From contig JAHAZB010000017.1 of NCBI GenBank assembly GCA_018384175.1, forward strand, positions 1 to 61,235: a DNA stretch of 61,235 bases, given 5' to 3'. Shown here in pieces: positions 15,940 to 48,183 of the stretch. Under the pieces are notes generated by a model, which saw only the letters and a program-made list of their open reading frames with translations, had not been told where the DNA came from and did not search any database. The number at the start of each line of letters is the position of its first letter. Positions within the stretch are counted from its first letter, which is position 1. The position numbers were made by a program, and so were the translations under genes. The DNA is from Eubacteriales bacterium. GTDB lineage: Bacteria; Bacillota; Clostridia; UBA1381.

Positions 15940-16665
15940 TTACGGTATCACAATAAAACCTTTTTCATCTACATCAATTCCAATATATTCATCAGGAGAT
16001 ATTTTATTTCCCCATTCCTTCCCTATACCGGGATTATATGTATCAGGGGTTGCCACCGTCACATCATCTATCTTTTCTGATGGAATTATCTCATATTCAA
16101 CGACTCTTGAAGGTATATCATCAGACTTTTGAAGATAATCTTCAAGCTCTGTTTCAGCCTTAACAATATCACCTGGAATCGTAACTGTATAGTCAAAATC
16201 AACCTCCGGAATTACCAAACCATTACCCGAGTTATATTTTTTGTCGTACTTTACAACCTTCGGTTCTGCGAAAGCCTTCATATCCTTCCATATCATACCC
16301 TTAACAGTCATAGTCTCATCAAGAGTGGTTGATACTTTTAGATTATATACAATACTTACATCAGTCTCATTCTGTTTAAGTGGTGTTGAGGACACCTCCA
16401 ACAGTTGCCCTTCCTGACTATATATAGCAACATAGAGAGTCATTCCATCTTCTGTGTCAATGTTCGTTGTAACTGCCGCACTAATGCCATAATACTCATA
16501 ACATTCAAACATTAAATGCTCTATGGTATGTGCATAGTTTTGAGCAAATGCAGGAGCAGAGAAAACAAATGTAAATATACATACAATTATAGCTTTAATA
16601 ATATTCTTCATTTTCTCACGCTCCTTTCTCTGCCTCATTATACCAGAAATCTTGTTGTTTGTCAA
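15940..16665 (-). CDS. secreted hypothetical protein
   Basis: N-terminal signal peptide MKNIIKAIIVCIFTFVFSAPAFAQ; true start likely that MKN. Confidence 0.65.
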   Translation of the reverse strand: MTNNKISGIMRQRKEREKMKNIIKAIIVCIFTFVFSAPAFAQNYAHTIEHLMFECYEYYGISAAVTTNIDTEDGMTLYVAIYSQEGQLLEVSSTPLKQNETDVSIVYNLKVSTTLDETMTVKGMIWKDMKAFAEPKVVKYDKKYNSGNGLVIPEVDFDYTVTIPGDIVKAETELEDYLQKSDDIPSRVVEYEIIPSEKIDDVTVATPDTYNPGIGKEWGNKISPDEYIGIDVDEKGFIVIP

Positions 16666-23671: not shown

Positions 23672-23859
23672 CTTCTTTTCCTTCCTTTTTACAATATATT
23701 TTCTTAATCATATCATAAATTGGGAAATATTTCAATCTGTAATAGCACCAAAATCCGCATTGTATTGCATATTTAAGCATATATCATAAACAGATTGACA
23801 AATAACTTCTTTTCAAATATAATGTACATAGATTCAATTCATAAACACCATAAAAATAA

Positions 23860-29682: not shown

Positions 29683-30864
29683 CTACGCTGCCTTCTCTTC
29701 CGGTTCGGCTTTTTTCTTGACTTTCTTCGGTTTTGGCTTCTTTTCAGCAACATAATCCTCTCTTTGCTTTTTAACAGCTTCGTCACTCACTCTTGTCATC
29801 ATAAAACGGTTGTATTTGTCCCTTATAAGGATATAGCCACGCCTGTCAATCTGAATCAGTAATGTGCCTTCAATTGTATCAAATACATTTTTAAGATGCG
29901 TTGCAGGATAGAAAAAACTCATACTTTCTTCACCAGATATCTTAACAGCATCTACTGTATTGGTGCATTTACCAACATTATTCTGTGTTGTAAGAGTGAT
30001 TTTCTCATCAGCAAATTCCAGGCCTATATATGACATCTTACTTCCCATCGCCGCAACAGTGTATGTACTCTCAAGCTGAGGTTTGAAATCAGAATATTCA
30101 ACCTTCATTGAATACACAGGTTTTAGTCCGTTCAGGATATTATCCACATTAACATACTCATACGCCATTTTCCTCGCTGAAAATATAAGTCCCTCACGCA
30201 TAAACACCACATGAGTATCGGTTGTACCAACTTTTATCTCCTCATTACCTGCCGCTGTTGCAAGATACATACAGGCTGGTTTTGGAAGTGTAAACTCAAC
30301 ACTGTTTTCACAGTTCATCATATGACTAACCATAGATATATTCTGCAAGTTACAGCTGATGACGCGAAAACCATTTGAACGGATATCAAAATGAATACCC
30401 TTCATTCCATCCGGTACTCCTGAGGATACAACTGCTGCTCTTGTTTTCGTATACATCGAAGCAACATTTGAGACAGTTGCCATCGTACCAGGAAATGGTA
30501 TCTCTGTTTTGGGATATGCACACGGATTCATAACACTTCTTGTATATGTACATTCACCTGATTTAACTTCTGCTGCTCCTTCTTTTATAAGAGCAAACTC
30601 AACCTCTGTGCCACCTAATAGATGCAGCATTTCGTACATAAAACTTGCATCCATCAGCATTTTGCCACCGCTTTCAATCGGCACCTTTATTCTCCTCTGT
30701 ACTGAAACTTCAAGATTTGTCGCCGTAATATAAAGGTATCCGTCATCCTCGTTTGCTTCAAGCAGAAAACCTGTCAGCTCTTTCATAGGACTTCCCTTCG
30801 GCACTACCTTATACATTGACTTAAGAAGTTCCAACATCAAATCTCTGTTAATCTTAAATCTCAC
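29683..30864 (-). CDS. DNA polymerase III beta-clamp-like protein
   Basis: DnaN-like three-domain layout; ITATNLEVSVQRRIKVPIESGGKMLMDASFMYEMLHLL; Lys/Glu-rich extra C-term tail. Confidence 0.8.
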   Translation of the reverse strand: MRFKINRDLMLELLKSMYKVVPKGSPMKELTGFLLEANEDDGYLYITATNLEVSVQRRIKVPIESGGKMLMDASFMYEMLHLLGGTEVEFALIKEGAAEVKSGECTYTRSVMNPCAYPKTEIPFPGTMATVSNVASMYTKTRAAVVSSGVPDGMKGIHFDIRSNGFRVISCNLQNISMVSHMMNCENSVEFTLPKPACMYLATAAGNEEIKVGTTDTHVVFMREGLIFSARKMAYEYVNVDNILNGLKPVYSMKVEYSDFKPQLESTYTVAAMGSKMSYIGLEFADEKITLTTQNNVGKCTNTVDAVKISGEESMSFFYPATHLKNVFDTIEGTLLIQIDRRGYILIRDKYNRFMMTRVSDEAVKKQREDYVAEKKPKPKKVKKKAEPEEKAA

Positions 30865-34299: not shown

Positions 34300-35427
34300 T
34301 CAGTTTGTATTACTTCTTTTTGCTTTAATTTTCTTTCTGAGCCATACAATAAACGCAATTGGACCTCCTATTATACCGGCAAACATAAGAAATACAATAA
34401 TTCCCGCTATGACATTGACTATCACTGAAATCTCATATATTTCAATCTCTATTGTATCTGTCATTCCATTTTCGGTTTCTGCTGTTATTTTCACCTTGCC
34501 TTCAGCAGTACCGACAACAACCCCGTTTTCGTCAACATTTGCAATATCAAAGTTATCTGACGACCATGTTACTGCAGGATTTGTAGTGTCTATTGGTAAT
34601 ACCAGAGCTGACAATTCAATTTGCTTCCCTTTCTCAAAACGAAGACTTTCGTATGATTGTCCTGTCTCCTTATTTATACATGTTATCTCTACACTTTCTG
34701 CTAATATAGGCATAACTTCAATTTCAAAGCTGTCAGTTAAATCTTTATGTACTGCTGTAATTGTTGTTTTACCTACTGCCAACGTCTTAACTTTACCTGT
34801 TGAATCAACAGAAGCCACACTTTCATCTTCTGATTTCCATTCAACGTTTTTGTATGTAGTGTTATCCGGTGTAATTATAACGGATAATTGAAGTTCTTCT
34901 CCGATGAAAACACTGTCCTTCTTCCCGTCAATCATGATGTTTTCTGCAACAACCTCTTTTACAATAAGCTTGAAATTTGATGTAGTTCCTCGTGAAGTCT
35001 TTGCACTAATAACAACACTACCGACACCAACAGCCGTTAAATTTCCTTCTGAATCTACAGTCGCAATAGAAGTATCACTTGATTCCCAAGTAATGCTTTT
35101 ATCTTCAGCATTTGCCGGGTAGGCTGTTGCACTTAATTTTATGCTTTCTCCTGCATCAATGCTTGATGGCATATTTTGTACATTAACCTTTGTTGCATAC
35201 ACTGGTTTTGGTGTAGTATATGTTGAAGTCTTACTGCTCGAATTATTTTTCGAGGAACTCTTACTTGACGAAGAACTACCCCCACCATTATGATAATGGT
35301 ATTCTCCTGTTTTTCTGTTGTAATGTCCTCCGTTAGCATCTGTTCTTCCCGGGTGTCCCATTACAGAAACAGCTGTTACCACCATAACAATGCCAATCAT
35401 TAATGCTGAAAATATATTCTTTCTCAT
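34300..35427 (-). CDS. exported YHYH-motif protein with Big_2-like Ig domains and C-terminal TM
   Basis: HPGRTDANGGHYNRKTGEYHYHNGG; repeated SSDTSIATVDSEGNLTAVGVG-type Ig domains. Confidence 0.85.
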   Translation of the reverse strand: MRKNIFSALMIGIVMVVTAVSVMGHPGRTDANGGHYNRKTGEYHYHNGGGSSSSSKSSSKNNSSSKTSTYTTPKPVYATKVNVQNMPSSIDAGESIKLSATAYPANAEDKSITWESSDTSIATVDSEGNLTAVGVGSVVISAKTSRGTTSNFKLIVKEVVAENIMIDGKKDSVFIGEELQLSVIITPDNTTYKNVEWKSEDESVASVDSTGKVKTLAVGKTTITAVHKDLTDSFEIEVMPILAESVEITCINKETGQSYESLRFEKGKQIELSALVLPIDTTNPAVTWSSDNFDIANVDENGVVVGTAEGKVKITAETENGMTDTIEIEIYEISVIVNVIAGIIVFLMFAGIIGGPIAFIVWLRKKIKAKRSNTN

Positions 35428-35439
35428 TTTACCTTCTCC

Positions 35440-35640
35440 TTAGTCCCTGAATAATTTATTCATTCGTTCTGTATTATTTTGTAATTTTTCTTTTGTTTCC
35501 GTTTCATCAATACAAATTAGCACAACATCGCCCTCTTTTGCATTATCCGGGAAAATCGCTCTTGGACATATAACCATTTTACCGCTGTATAATTCTACTA
35601 CAGCAAATTCTCCCTCAAACCTATCAATTATAACCTTCAT
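35440..35640 (-). CDS. DUF3006-like protein
   Basis: MKVIIDRFEGEFAVVELYSGKMVICPRAIFPDNAKEGDVVLICID; next to an MBL hydrolase. Confidence 0.75.
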   Translation of the reverse strand: MKVIIDRFEGEFAVVELYSGKMVICPRAIFPDNAKEGDVVLICIDETETKEKLQNNTERMNKLFRD

Positions 35641-35660
35641 ATTTGACCCCCTCATTCAAG

Positions 35661-36863
35661 TTATTTACAGCATCTTGAGCACGGACCCAACCCCATAGCC
35701 TCAGCTTCGCTTATCGTAGTTTCGATTTTACTTTTAAGGTATGAACATCCCAATCTATGATATTTCGTCCCTGTTTTTGTTCGATATACCACAAAGTTTT
35801 GTGTTTCTTCATTAACACTTTCATCTCTTATATTTCCTTGCGCTTCTTCGGTAATGGGAGGTGCATTTTCTTTTATCGAAGACGATTTCTTATTTACAAC
35901 AATTTTCTTATTACTATCTGCTGTAATAGTTATTGTTCCTACTTCATCAGTTCTGTAAATTTCCGCGCCAATATCGGATAATGTAGACAACGTTTCTTCA
36001 TGCGGATGACCATATGAGTTCCCATATCCTACAGAAATAACTGCAACTGCCGGTGATACTGCTTCTATAAATTTCGGAGCAGATGAAGAATTAGAGCCGT
36101 GATGTCCTACCTTTAGGACTTCTGCATCAACATCACTTCGCTGTAACTCTATCTCTTTTTCTGAATCTCCTGTAAATATCATTACAGTTTTTCCGTAAGT
36201 AAGTTTTACTATAGCAGAACAGTTATTTAAGTCAGTATAACTATCAGCAAACGGAGCAAGTATATCTATTATAGTGTTGCCATCCCTTGTTATGTTCACT
36301 CCCGCCTTTGCCGTGTATAGCTCTATGCCTTTGTTTTCAATAACATCAAGCATATTATCGAATGCACTTATTGTATGCGCCTGCCTAGGCATATACATTT
36401 TACCGATTTCAAAGCTATTAAGAACATCTGCCATTCCGCCAATATGGTCGTCATGCGGATGAGTTGCAATAACAAAATCTATAACATCATACTGCAGATT
36501 ACGTATATAGTTTATTATTGTTTCAGAATCTCCTTTTCTTCCCGCATCAATCAGCATTGTTTGACCGTTGCTCAGTTCAATAAATGTACTATCAGCTTGA
36601 CCTACATCTATGAAATGAGCATACATCAATTTGCTGTTTAAGTTAGGTTGTGGTGAGATTTCTGTAGTTGCTTCAATAATCTCATATTCTGTTTGCGTTT
36701 CGGTTTGTGATTCACTTATGTCTCTACTATCTTCGTGATTAATAACAGATTCTCGGACTTGTGACTGAATATCATTATTTACTTCGTTCGTTTCTACATC
36801 GCACCCCGAAAGTAAGAAAGATAAAACGATAACAGGATATATCCATCTATAAAGCTTTTTCAT
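35661..36863 (-). CDS. lipoprotein MBL-fold hydrolase (ComEC C-terminal-like)
   Basis: THPHDDHIGG motif, FTGDSE, LKVGHHGSNSSS; lipobox LLSGC; start reset to MKKLYRW with AGGAGACATT upstream. Confidence 0.88.
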   Translation of the reverse strand: MKKLYRWIYPVIVLSFLLSGCDVETNEVNNDIQSQVRESVINHEDSRDISESQTETQTEYEIIEATTEISPQPNLNSKLMYAHFIDVGQADSTFIELSNGQTMLIDAGRKGDSETIINYIRNLQYDVIDFVIATHPHDDHIGGMADVLNSFEIGKMYMPRQAHTISAFDNMLDVIENKGIELYTAKAGVNITRDGNTIIDILAPFADSYTDLNNCSAIVKLTYGKTVMIFTGDSEKEIELQRSDVDAEVLKVGHHGSNSSSAPKFIEAVSPAVAVISVGYGNSYGHPHEETLSTLSDIGAEIYRTDEVGTITITADSNKKIVVNKKSSSIKENAPPITEEAQGNIRDESVNEETQNFVVYRTKTGTKYHRLGCSYLKSKIETTISEAEAMGLGPCSRCCK

Positions 36864-36889
36864 AATGTCTCCTTTGTATCTAACTTTAG

Positions 36890-36908
36890 CAAAAAGTACA
36901 CATTTTGA
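36890..36908. repeat. 19-bp inverted repeat, left arm
   Basis: CAAAAAGTACACATTTTGA, exact reverse complement of 37035..37053. Confidence 0.9.
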
Positions 36909-36942
36909 CAAATATATTTGCAATGAAAAATTCTGTTTAATA

Positions 36943-36971
36943 TTGACAATATCCCCTAATTTTAATATAAT
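36943..36971 (+). promoter_or_regulatory. perfect consensus sigma-A promoter inside the inverted repeats
   Basis: TTGACA (36943-36948), 17-nt spacer, TATAAT (36966-36971). Confidence 0.8.
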
Positions 36972-37027
36972 AAACTTACGGATACAAGCAAATAAAGGCT
37001 GTTTTTCAGTATTTTGTATAAAAAAAT

Positions 37028-37061
37028 ATCACTATCAAAATGTGTACTTTTTGATAGTGAT
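37028..37061. terminator. bidirectional-looking terminator at recombinase 3' end
   Basis: ATCACTATCAAAA / TTTTGATAGTGAT, 13-bp stem; T-rich on both strands; overlaps right IR arm. Confidence 0.85.
37035..37053. repeat. 19-bp inverted repeat, right arm
   Basis: TCAAAATGTGTACTTTTTG. Confidence 0.9.
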
Positions 37062-48106: not shown

Positions 48107-48183
48107 TATGTTTCCCTCCTCTCACTAATATTATACTTTTAAGTTATCAAAATGTCAACACTTATTTGATAACTTTTTAGTCA

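Follow-up and report, generated by a model that had tools for sequence, protein, structure and literature searches.

On the minus strand of the window (the whole stretch of DNA analysed here, 61,235 nucleotides from a gut Eubacteriales bacterium of the Clostridia) lie a gene for a small serine recombinase and, downstream of it, three genes for a hydrolase, a DUF3006 protein and a surface protein, all in the same direction, as a reading made from the letters alone (hereafter the sequence-only reading) had already stated. That reading proposed an invertible promoter in the gap between the recombinase and the hydrolase gene. The features of the locus are collected in Table 1.

Table 1. Genes and sequence features of the recombinase locus (window positions)
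Feature	Position	Strand	Details
Small serine recombinase, presumed invertase, 197 aa	37064..37657	(-)	Pfam Resolvase 1.5e-26
Proximal (recombinase-side) recombination site	37032..37057		CTATCAAAATGT-GT-ACTTTTTGATAG; core GT 37044-37045
Distal (operon-side) recombination site	36886..36911		TTAGCAAAAAGT-AC-ACATTTTGACAA; core AC 36898-36899
Invertible segment between the two cores	36900..37043		OFF orientation for the MBL operon, on the basis of homology to flipped pairs
Promoter TTGACA-17-TATAAT inside the segment	36943..36971	(+)	Points toward the recombinase 3' end in the assembled orientation
Recombinase terminator hairpin, 13 bp, on the proximal site	37028..37061	(-)	T tract within the invertible segment
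Target gene 1: lipoprotein-like secreted MBL-fold hydrolase, ComEC C-terminal type	35661..36863	(-)	
Target gene 2: DUF3006 protein	35440..35655	(-)	
Target gene 3: YHYH / Big_2 surface protein	34300..35427	(-)	

The two 19-bp arms (36890-36908 and 37035-37053) are indeed an exact inverted repeat around 126 bp, the longest in the whole 61-kb window with arms no more than 600 bp apart, the next longest measuring 13 bp. Each arm, however, forms only the central part of a recombination site proper, a near-palindrome of 26 bp built around a core of 2 bp. The hix and gix sites of Hin, Gin and Cin are likewise 26-bp near-palindromes with a 2-bp core. The distal site is inverted relative to the proximal one and 146 bp from it, i.e. 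13.9 helical turns, and the two pair over 22 of their 26 bases. Within the assembly (1,976,368 bases, 88% complete) the pattern CAAAANGTNNACNTTTTG, counted with its exact core, is present at two places only, both at this locus, and the reversed control at none; the uniqueness of the two sites points to a one-cassette, one-recombinase system.

The promoter inside the segment lies on the plus strand, as had been read, and agrees with the consensus at 12 of 12 positions. Three further perfect copies of TTGACA-17-TATAAT are found in the window (16637-16665 (-), 23795-23823 (+) and 48130-48158 (-)), hence a perfect promoter is by itself not unusual. The weaker minus-strand promoter invoked as a caveat (TTGTAT/TAAAAT) did not survive, as it reaches only 8 of 12 positions, which is the background level. 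The right arm does overlap the 13-bp terminator hairpin of the recombinase. The hairpin is bidirectional and also ends the sterile plus transcript, whose length to the hairpin end is about 83 nt, close to the 85 nt or so expected. For the 3' end of the recombinase, folding prediction gives -16.5 kcal/mol as drawn and -2.5 kcal/mol after inversion. The anticipated loss of half of the stem is borne out, save that the inner half with the T tract is removed and not the outer one.

The recombinase matches the Resolvase N-terminal catalytic domain (PF00239, 1.5e-26), and its YVRVS catalytic-serine motif and DRLGRN motif align to Sin; possessing the catalytic domain, the catalytic serine and the conserved DRLGR motif, it qualifies as a small serine recombinase. 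The inverted pair of 26-bp palindromic sites with a 2-bp core agrees with the Hin/Gin type named by the sequence-only reading, but by sequence the protein is nearer to the Sin/Tn552 resolvases than to Hin/Gin: its PDB matches rank Sin and Tn552 Bin3 first (6.5e-32), followed by gamma-delta (7e-19) and Gin (1.4e-11). Nor does it pass the NCBIfam Mpi model (46 bits against a cutoff of 272). The surroundings include a VirD4-like gene (CD1115 family, above cutoff) and a VirB4-like conjugation gene (under cutoff), which makes an integrative conjugative element the most likely setting of the locus. A protein resembling DNA polymerase III beta (the sliding clamp) is also encoded on this probable element (29683-30864 (-)), with a score below the curated cutoff.

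Relatives of the recombinase were sampled as 80 homologs from genome contigs (60-72% identity), to which homologs recovered from viral contigs and by genome searches at class and family level were added. Here, I show that the anatomy of the cassette is conserved: about 100 recombinase relatives share a layout made of the stop codon, the proximal site with its terminator hairpin, the promoter, the inverted distal site and a co-directional gene. In most homologs the palindromic site TCAAAAGGT-NN-ACCTTTTGA, or a diverged, clade-specific version of it, directly follows the recombinase stop codon, at the same position as in the window, and a second, inverted copy usually lies 115-200 bp beyond the first. 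Inverted pairs follow the stop codon in 50 of the 73 homologs with enough flank, against 0/73 in equal upstream control windows judged by identical criteria; looser, consensus-free criteria recover pairs in 86 test and 4 control windows. No site pair was detectable at about 23 of the 73 loci. The recombinase tree places the window in a supported clade of five, every member of which has a pair; this clade is nested within one of 79 rows, 54 of them with pairs.

Exact site-pair patterns in viral contigs are limited to 4 loci. The same kind of cassette is carried by the Enterococcus faecalis plasmid pGTC3 (L243, 1992-2594 plus about 100 bp downstream), with core AG and a spacing of 94 bp (9.0 turns), and is followed there by genes for an Rrf2 regulator and an LRR protein; its presence there indicates that the family reaches plasmids of Bacilli. 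Two other plasmid relatives, one of them beside a Mu-type transposase gene, have no site pair next to the recombinase gene.

Most loci have GT/AC as the core dinucleotide, others AA, AG or AT. In the first set the two cores of a locus match in the inverted sense in 54 of 54 site pairs, a figure slightly biased by the fact that the pair score counts the two core positions. Serine recombination needs matching cores, whereas mere binding sites would not.

Both orientations of the segment, with breakpoints at the sites, are found among relatives, namely in L218/L220, L045/L055/L213 and L194/L217. Between L218 and L220 the flanks are nearly identical (572/574 on the recombinase side, 600/600 on the far side), the 118-bp core-to-core segment agrees at 118/118 positions when inverted versus 62/141 when compared directly, and the exchange of half-sites falls exactly at the core. 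In the flipped member the promoter (TGGAAA-17-TATTAT) is turned from the recombinase toward the far gene, presumably a cytosine-5 DNA methyltransferase (an assignment made by reading the sequence, with no domain scan). L237 shares the orientation of L218. The three loci belong to different genera (genomes G719, G837 and G805 for L218, L220 and L237, respectively), have identical far sides and segments, and include opposite orientations; this pattern is one of recent transfer plus a flip. The segment of L045 agrees with those of L055 and L213 at 110/129 positions when inverted (directly at 76/144 and 75/145), and that of L194 with that of L217 at 107/140 (directly at 77/152).

The direction of the promoter follows the state of the arms. 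Where the best palindromic partner of each site is the site itself, 48 loci are OFF (promoter toward the recombinase) and 5 ON (promoter toward the far gene); where the half-sites instead pair better between the sites, 5 loci are OFF and 9 ON (Fisher p = 6e-5). Against this agreement, five loci with a weak flipped arm signature are still called OFF by their promoters. Promoter calls are consensus matches, and promoters overlapping the sites were left out of them, since the arm TTTTGACA mimics a -35 box. In most loci, as in the window, the promoter faces the recombinase. In unflipped loci the hairpin behind the recombinase stop codon is stable, at a mean of -15.5 kcal/mol, and becomes weaker after in-silico inversion (-8.4 kcal/mol); it is more stable as drawn than inverted in 43 of 53 loci. 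It follows that the proximal site has a second role as terminator of the recombinase gene, and that flipping has two effects, turning the promoter toward the far gene and weakening that terminator.

The proposal of an invertible promoter is thus upheld by the recurrence of the same cassette beside some 100 related recombinases, by natural flips at the cores and by the accompanying change of promoter direction; the cassettes are a widespread family of real invertible promoters.

The distance between the two site centres falls on whole helical turns, the values being 115, 126, 136, 147, 157, 168, 178 and 190 bp. Over 82 loci, R = 0.73 at 10.5 bp with a mean phase of about 0, and it remains high when recombinases are dereplicated at 72% and 68% identity (R = 0.82, n=25, and 0.78, n=14, respectively); against jittered spacings, p <= 5e-5, and 89 of 101 loci deviate from an integral turn count by no more than 1 bp. 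The simplest reading, inferred from this phasing, is that two bound dimers loop directly on one face of a short DNA, with no remote Fis enhancer. A phased short loop predicts that a 5-bp insertion would abolish inversion and that a 10-bp insertion would restore it. The -35 box is 58, 68, 79, 91 or 102 bp from the site across which the promoter fires, possibly in whole-turn steps too; with distinct values alone this phasing is weak (R = 0.36) and no claim is made on it.

The window very probably holds a self-contained invertible-promoter cassette. Dimers of the serine recombinase would bind the two 26-bp sites (no biochemical evidence links the recombinase to them), and the sites would pair by looping about 14 helical turns of intervening DNA; cutting at the 2-bp core and rejoining would then invert the 146-bp core-to-core segment. 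As assembled, which would be OFF for the operon, the strong promoter is expected to fire toward the recombinase and its transcript to stop at the hairpin of the proximal site, which would also terminate the recombinase mRNA. In the inverted (ON) state, transcription from the promoter would cross the distal site and enter the MBL/DUF3006/YHYH operon, with a predicted leader of 101 nt, matching the value of about 100 nt first proposed; as the terminator loses half of its stem and its T tract, readthrough may add to the expression of the operon. A flip of the window segment would thereby turn a secreted-enzyme operon on or off. Flipping of the window copy by its own recombinase, and the resulting change in expression, are inferred; since the exact locus itself was not found in flipped form, the ON/OFF effect on the MBL operon stays an inference.

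The last point leaves room for an alternative which is improbable yet not negligible, i.e. that the family is invertible but the window copy is locked, or nearly locked, in the OFF state, or that the MBL operon is otherwise promoted, so that the switch has little effect. Comparison of the orientation of the segment across related genomes, as the sequence-only reading had suggested, gave flipped pairs among relatives and none for the exact locus: a search of the 101 nearest genomes returned only weaker relatives in the same orientation, and the nearest clade (L001, L095, L096, L185 and L187) has no flipped member, all being OFF-like, as are most loci overall. Most genomes are draft assemblies, which display one dominant orientation, and the window assembly is itself a fragmented draft known by its consensus only, a circumstance that leaves a locked state possible. 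Against such a state, the catalytic motifs and both sites are intact, the sites still pairing as described above, and no minus-strand promoter above background is seen ahead of the MBL gene.

A second alternative, very unlikely in the light of the family, regards the two sites as subsites (crossover and accessory) of a resolvase res site that resolves dimers or cointegrates of a mobile element, the promoter being incidental. The closest solved relatives of the recombinase, Sin and Tn552 Bin3, are resolvases, the locus is on a conjugative element according to its VirD4 and VirB4 relatives, and a resolvase complex would also predict spacing by an integer number of turns. Accessory sites, on the other hand, need no shared crossover core, yet the cores match in the inverted sense in all 54 loci, and in relatives the segment has been found inverted exactly between them. 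Moreover, Sin res is 86 bp long with a head-to-tail site II (PMC2428073), as opposed to inverted palindromes 115-200 bp apart, and while the two resolvase-like plasmid homologs lack a pair, the third, having an LRR-protein gene downstream, possesses one. That the arms merely serve as operators, bound by a transcription regulator or by the recombinase regulating itself, without any inversion, is hardly tenable: palindromic 26-bp sites around a promoter at whole-turn spacing do resemble looping operators, but operators do not account for exact inversions between cores in relatives, for the covariation of the cores of a locus, or for a promoter direction that tracks the arm signature.

As an invertible promoter, the cassette works like Hin, Mpi and other promoter invertases. 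With Hin, Gin and Cin it has in common 26-bp near-palindromic sites with a 2-bp core in inverted pairs, the invertase chemistry and, as for Hin, promoter inversion; it differs in having a segment of only about 0.1-0.2 kb, a phased spacing and a recombinase located outside the segment. The Mpi family (the master DNA invertase of Bacteroides) similarly comprises small serine recombinases that invert short promoter segments between inverted repeats, but Mpi serves many distant sites per genome, whereas here one recombinase stands beside one genome-unique pair. The Sin, Tn552 Bin3 and beta resolvases are the closest by sequence to the window recombinase; in place of a site I and a head-to-tail site II, however, the cassette has two inverted crossover-like sites around a promoter, and the outcome observed in the family is inversion. 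Short invertible promoters are also known in Clostridia, but unlike these the present family uses a directly adjacent serine recombinase. RecV is a tyrosine recombinase. The C. difficile switches surveyed centre on RecV (PMC5903667), hCom2 inverton group 139 (Clostridia, from a read-based survey) is tied to a tyrosine recombinase, and the Clostridia invertons linked to an enzyme in the literature examined involve tyrosine recombinases (PMC11892184). As for looping, Hin depends on a remote Fis-bound enhancer (PMC3798978), and Sin-like res sites, as proposed for the cassette, use tight complexes on short DNA (PMC2428073).

The family was not found described in the literature searched, and single members may already be present in inverton tables (Jiang 2019, Chanin 2024). 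I remain evenly divided on the wider proposal that it is a large, mobile and undescribed family of one-gene promoter switches, in which a resolvase-type recombinase would have been turned into an enhancer-free invertase via a short whole-turn loop, the proximal site would serve as its own terminator, the flip would aim the promoter and remove the terminator, and the cassette would move between genomes and be captured before unrelated genes.

A co-directional gene is located just beyond the distal site in 79 of 82 loci. The targets include surface proteins (BspA-type LRR, SLH, List_Bact-repeat and VWA), AMP-binding enzymes, a DrmD-like helicase with a PLD domain, Eco57I- and MmeI-like methylases, EAL/GGDEF proteins, a glycosyltransferase, PP2C and TnpB/Cas12f-like proteins. 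Nearly identical recombinases (L011, L015, L023 and L026) precede different genes, hence the cassette behaves as a module. Elsewhere in the family, the MBL homologs (10 loci) have neither a recombinase nor a cassette; in 5 of these 10 loci a DUF3006 gene adjoins the MBL gene.

A serine recombinase adjacent to palindromic, matching-core sites at whole-turn spacing constitutes a sequence rule by which phase-variable genes of Clostridia may be predicted from assemblies, without reads. For gut bacteria, it points to phase variation in surface proteins, restriction-modification, c-di-GMP enzymes, adenylating enzymes and TnpB-like genes. The cassette might also be put to use as a compact genetic switch.

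AMP-binding (adenylating) enzymes recur as targets, accounting for 6 of 77 far genes (L006, L011, L023 and others), and phase-variable metabolite synthesis is a possible consequence. In four loci of one recombinase clade (L017, L025, L066 and L068) a TnpB/Cas12f-like gene is the first behind the invertible promoter, possibly a phase-variable relative of RNA-guided nucleases. Lastly, six close homologs of the L055 recombinase occur in one genome (G689), possibly representing six independent switches.
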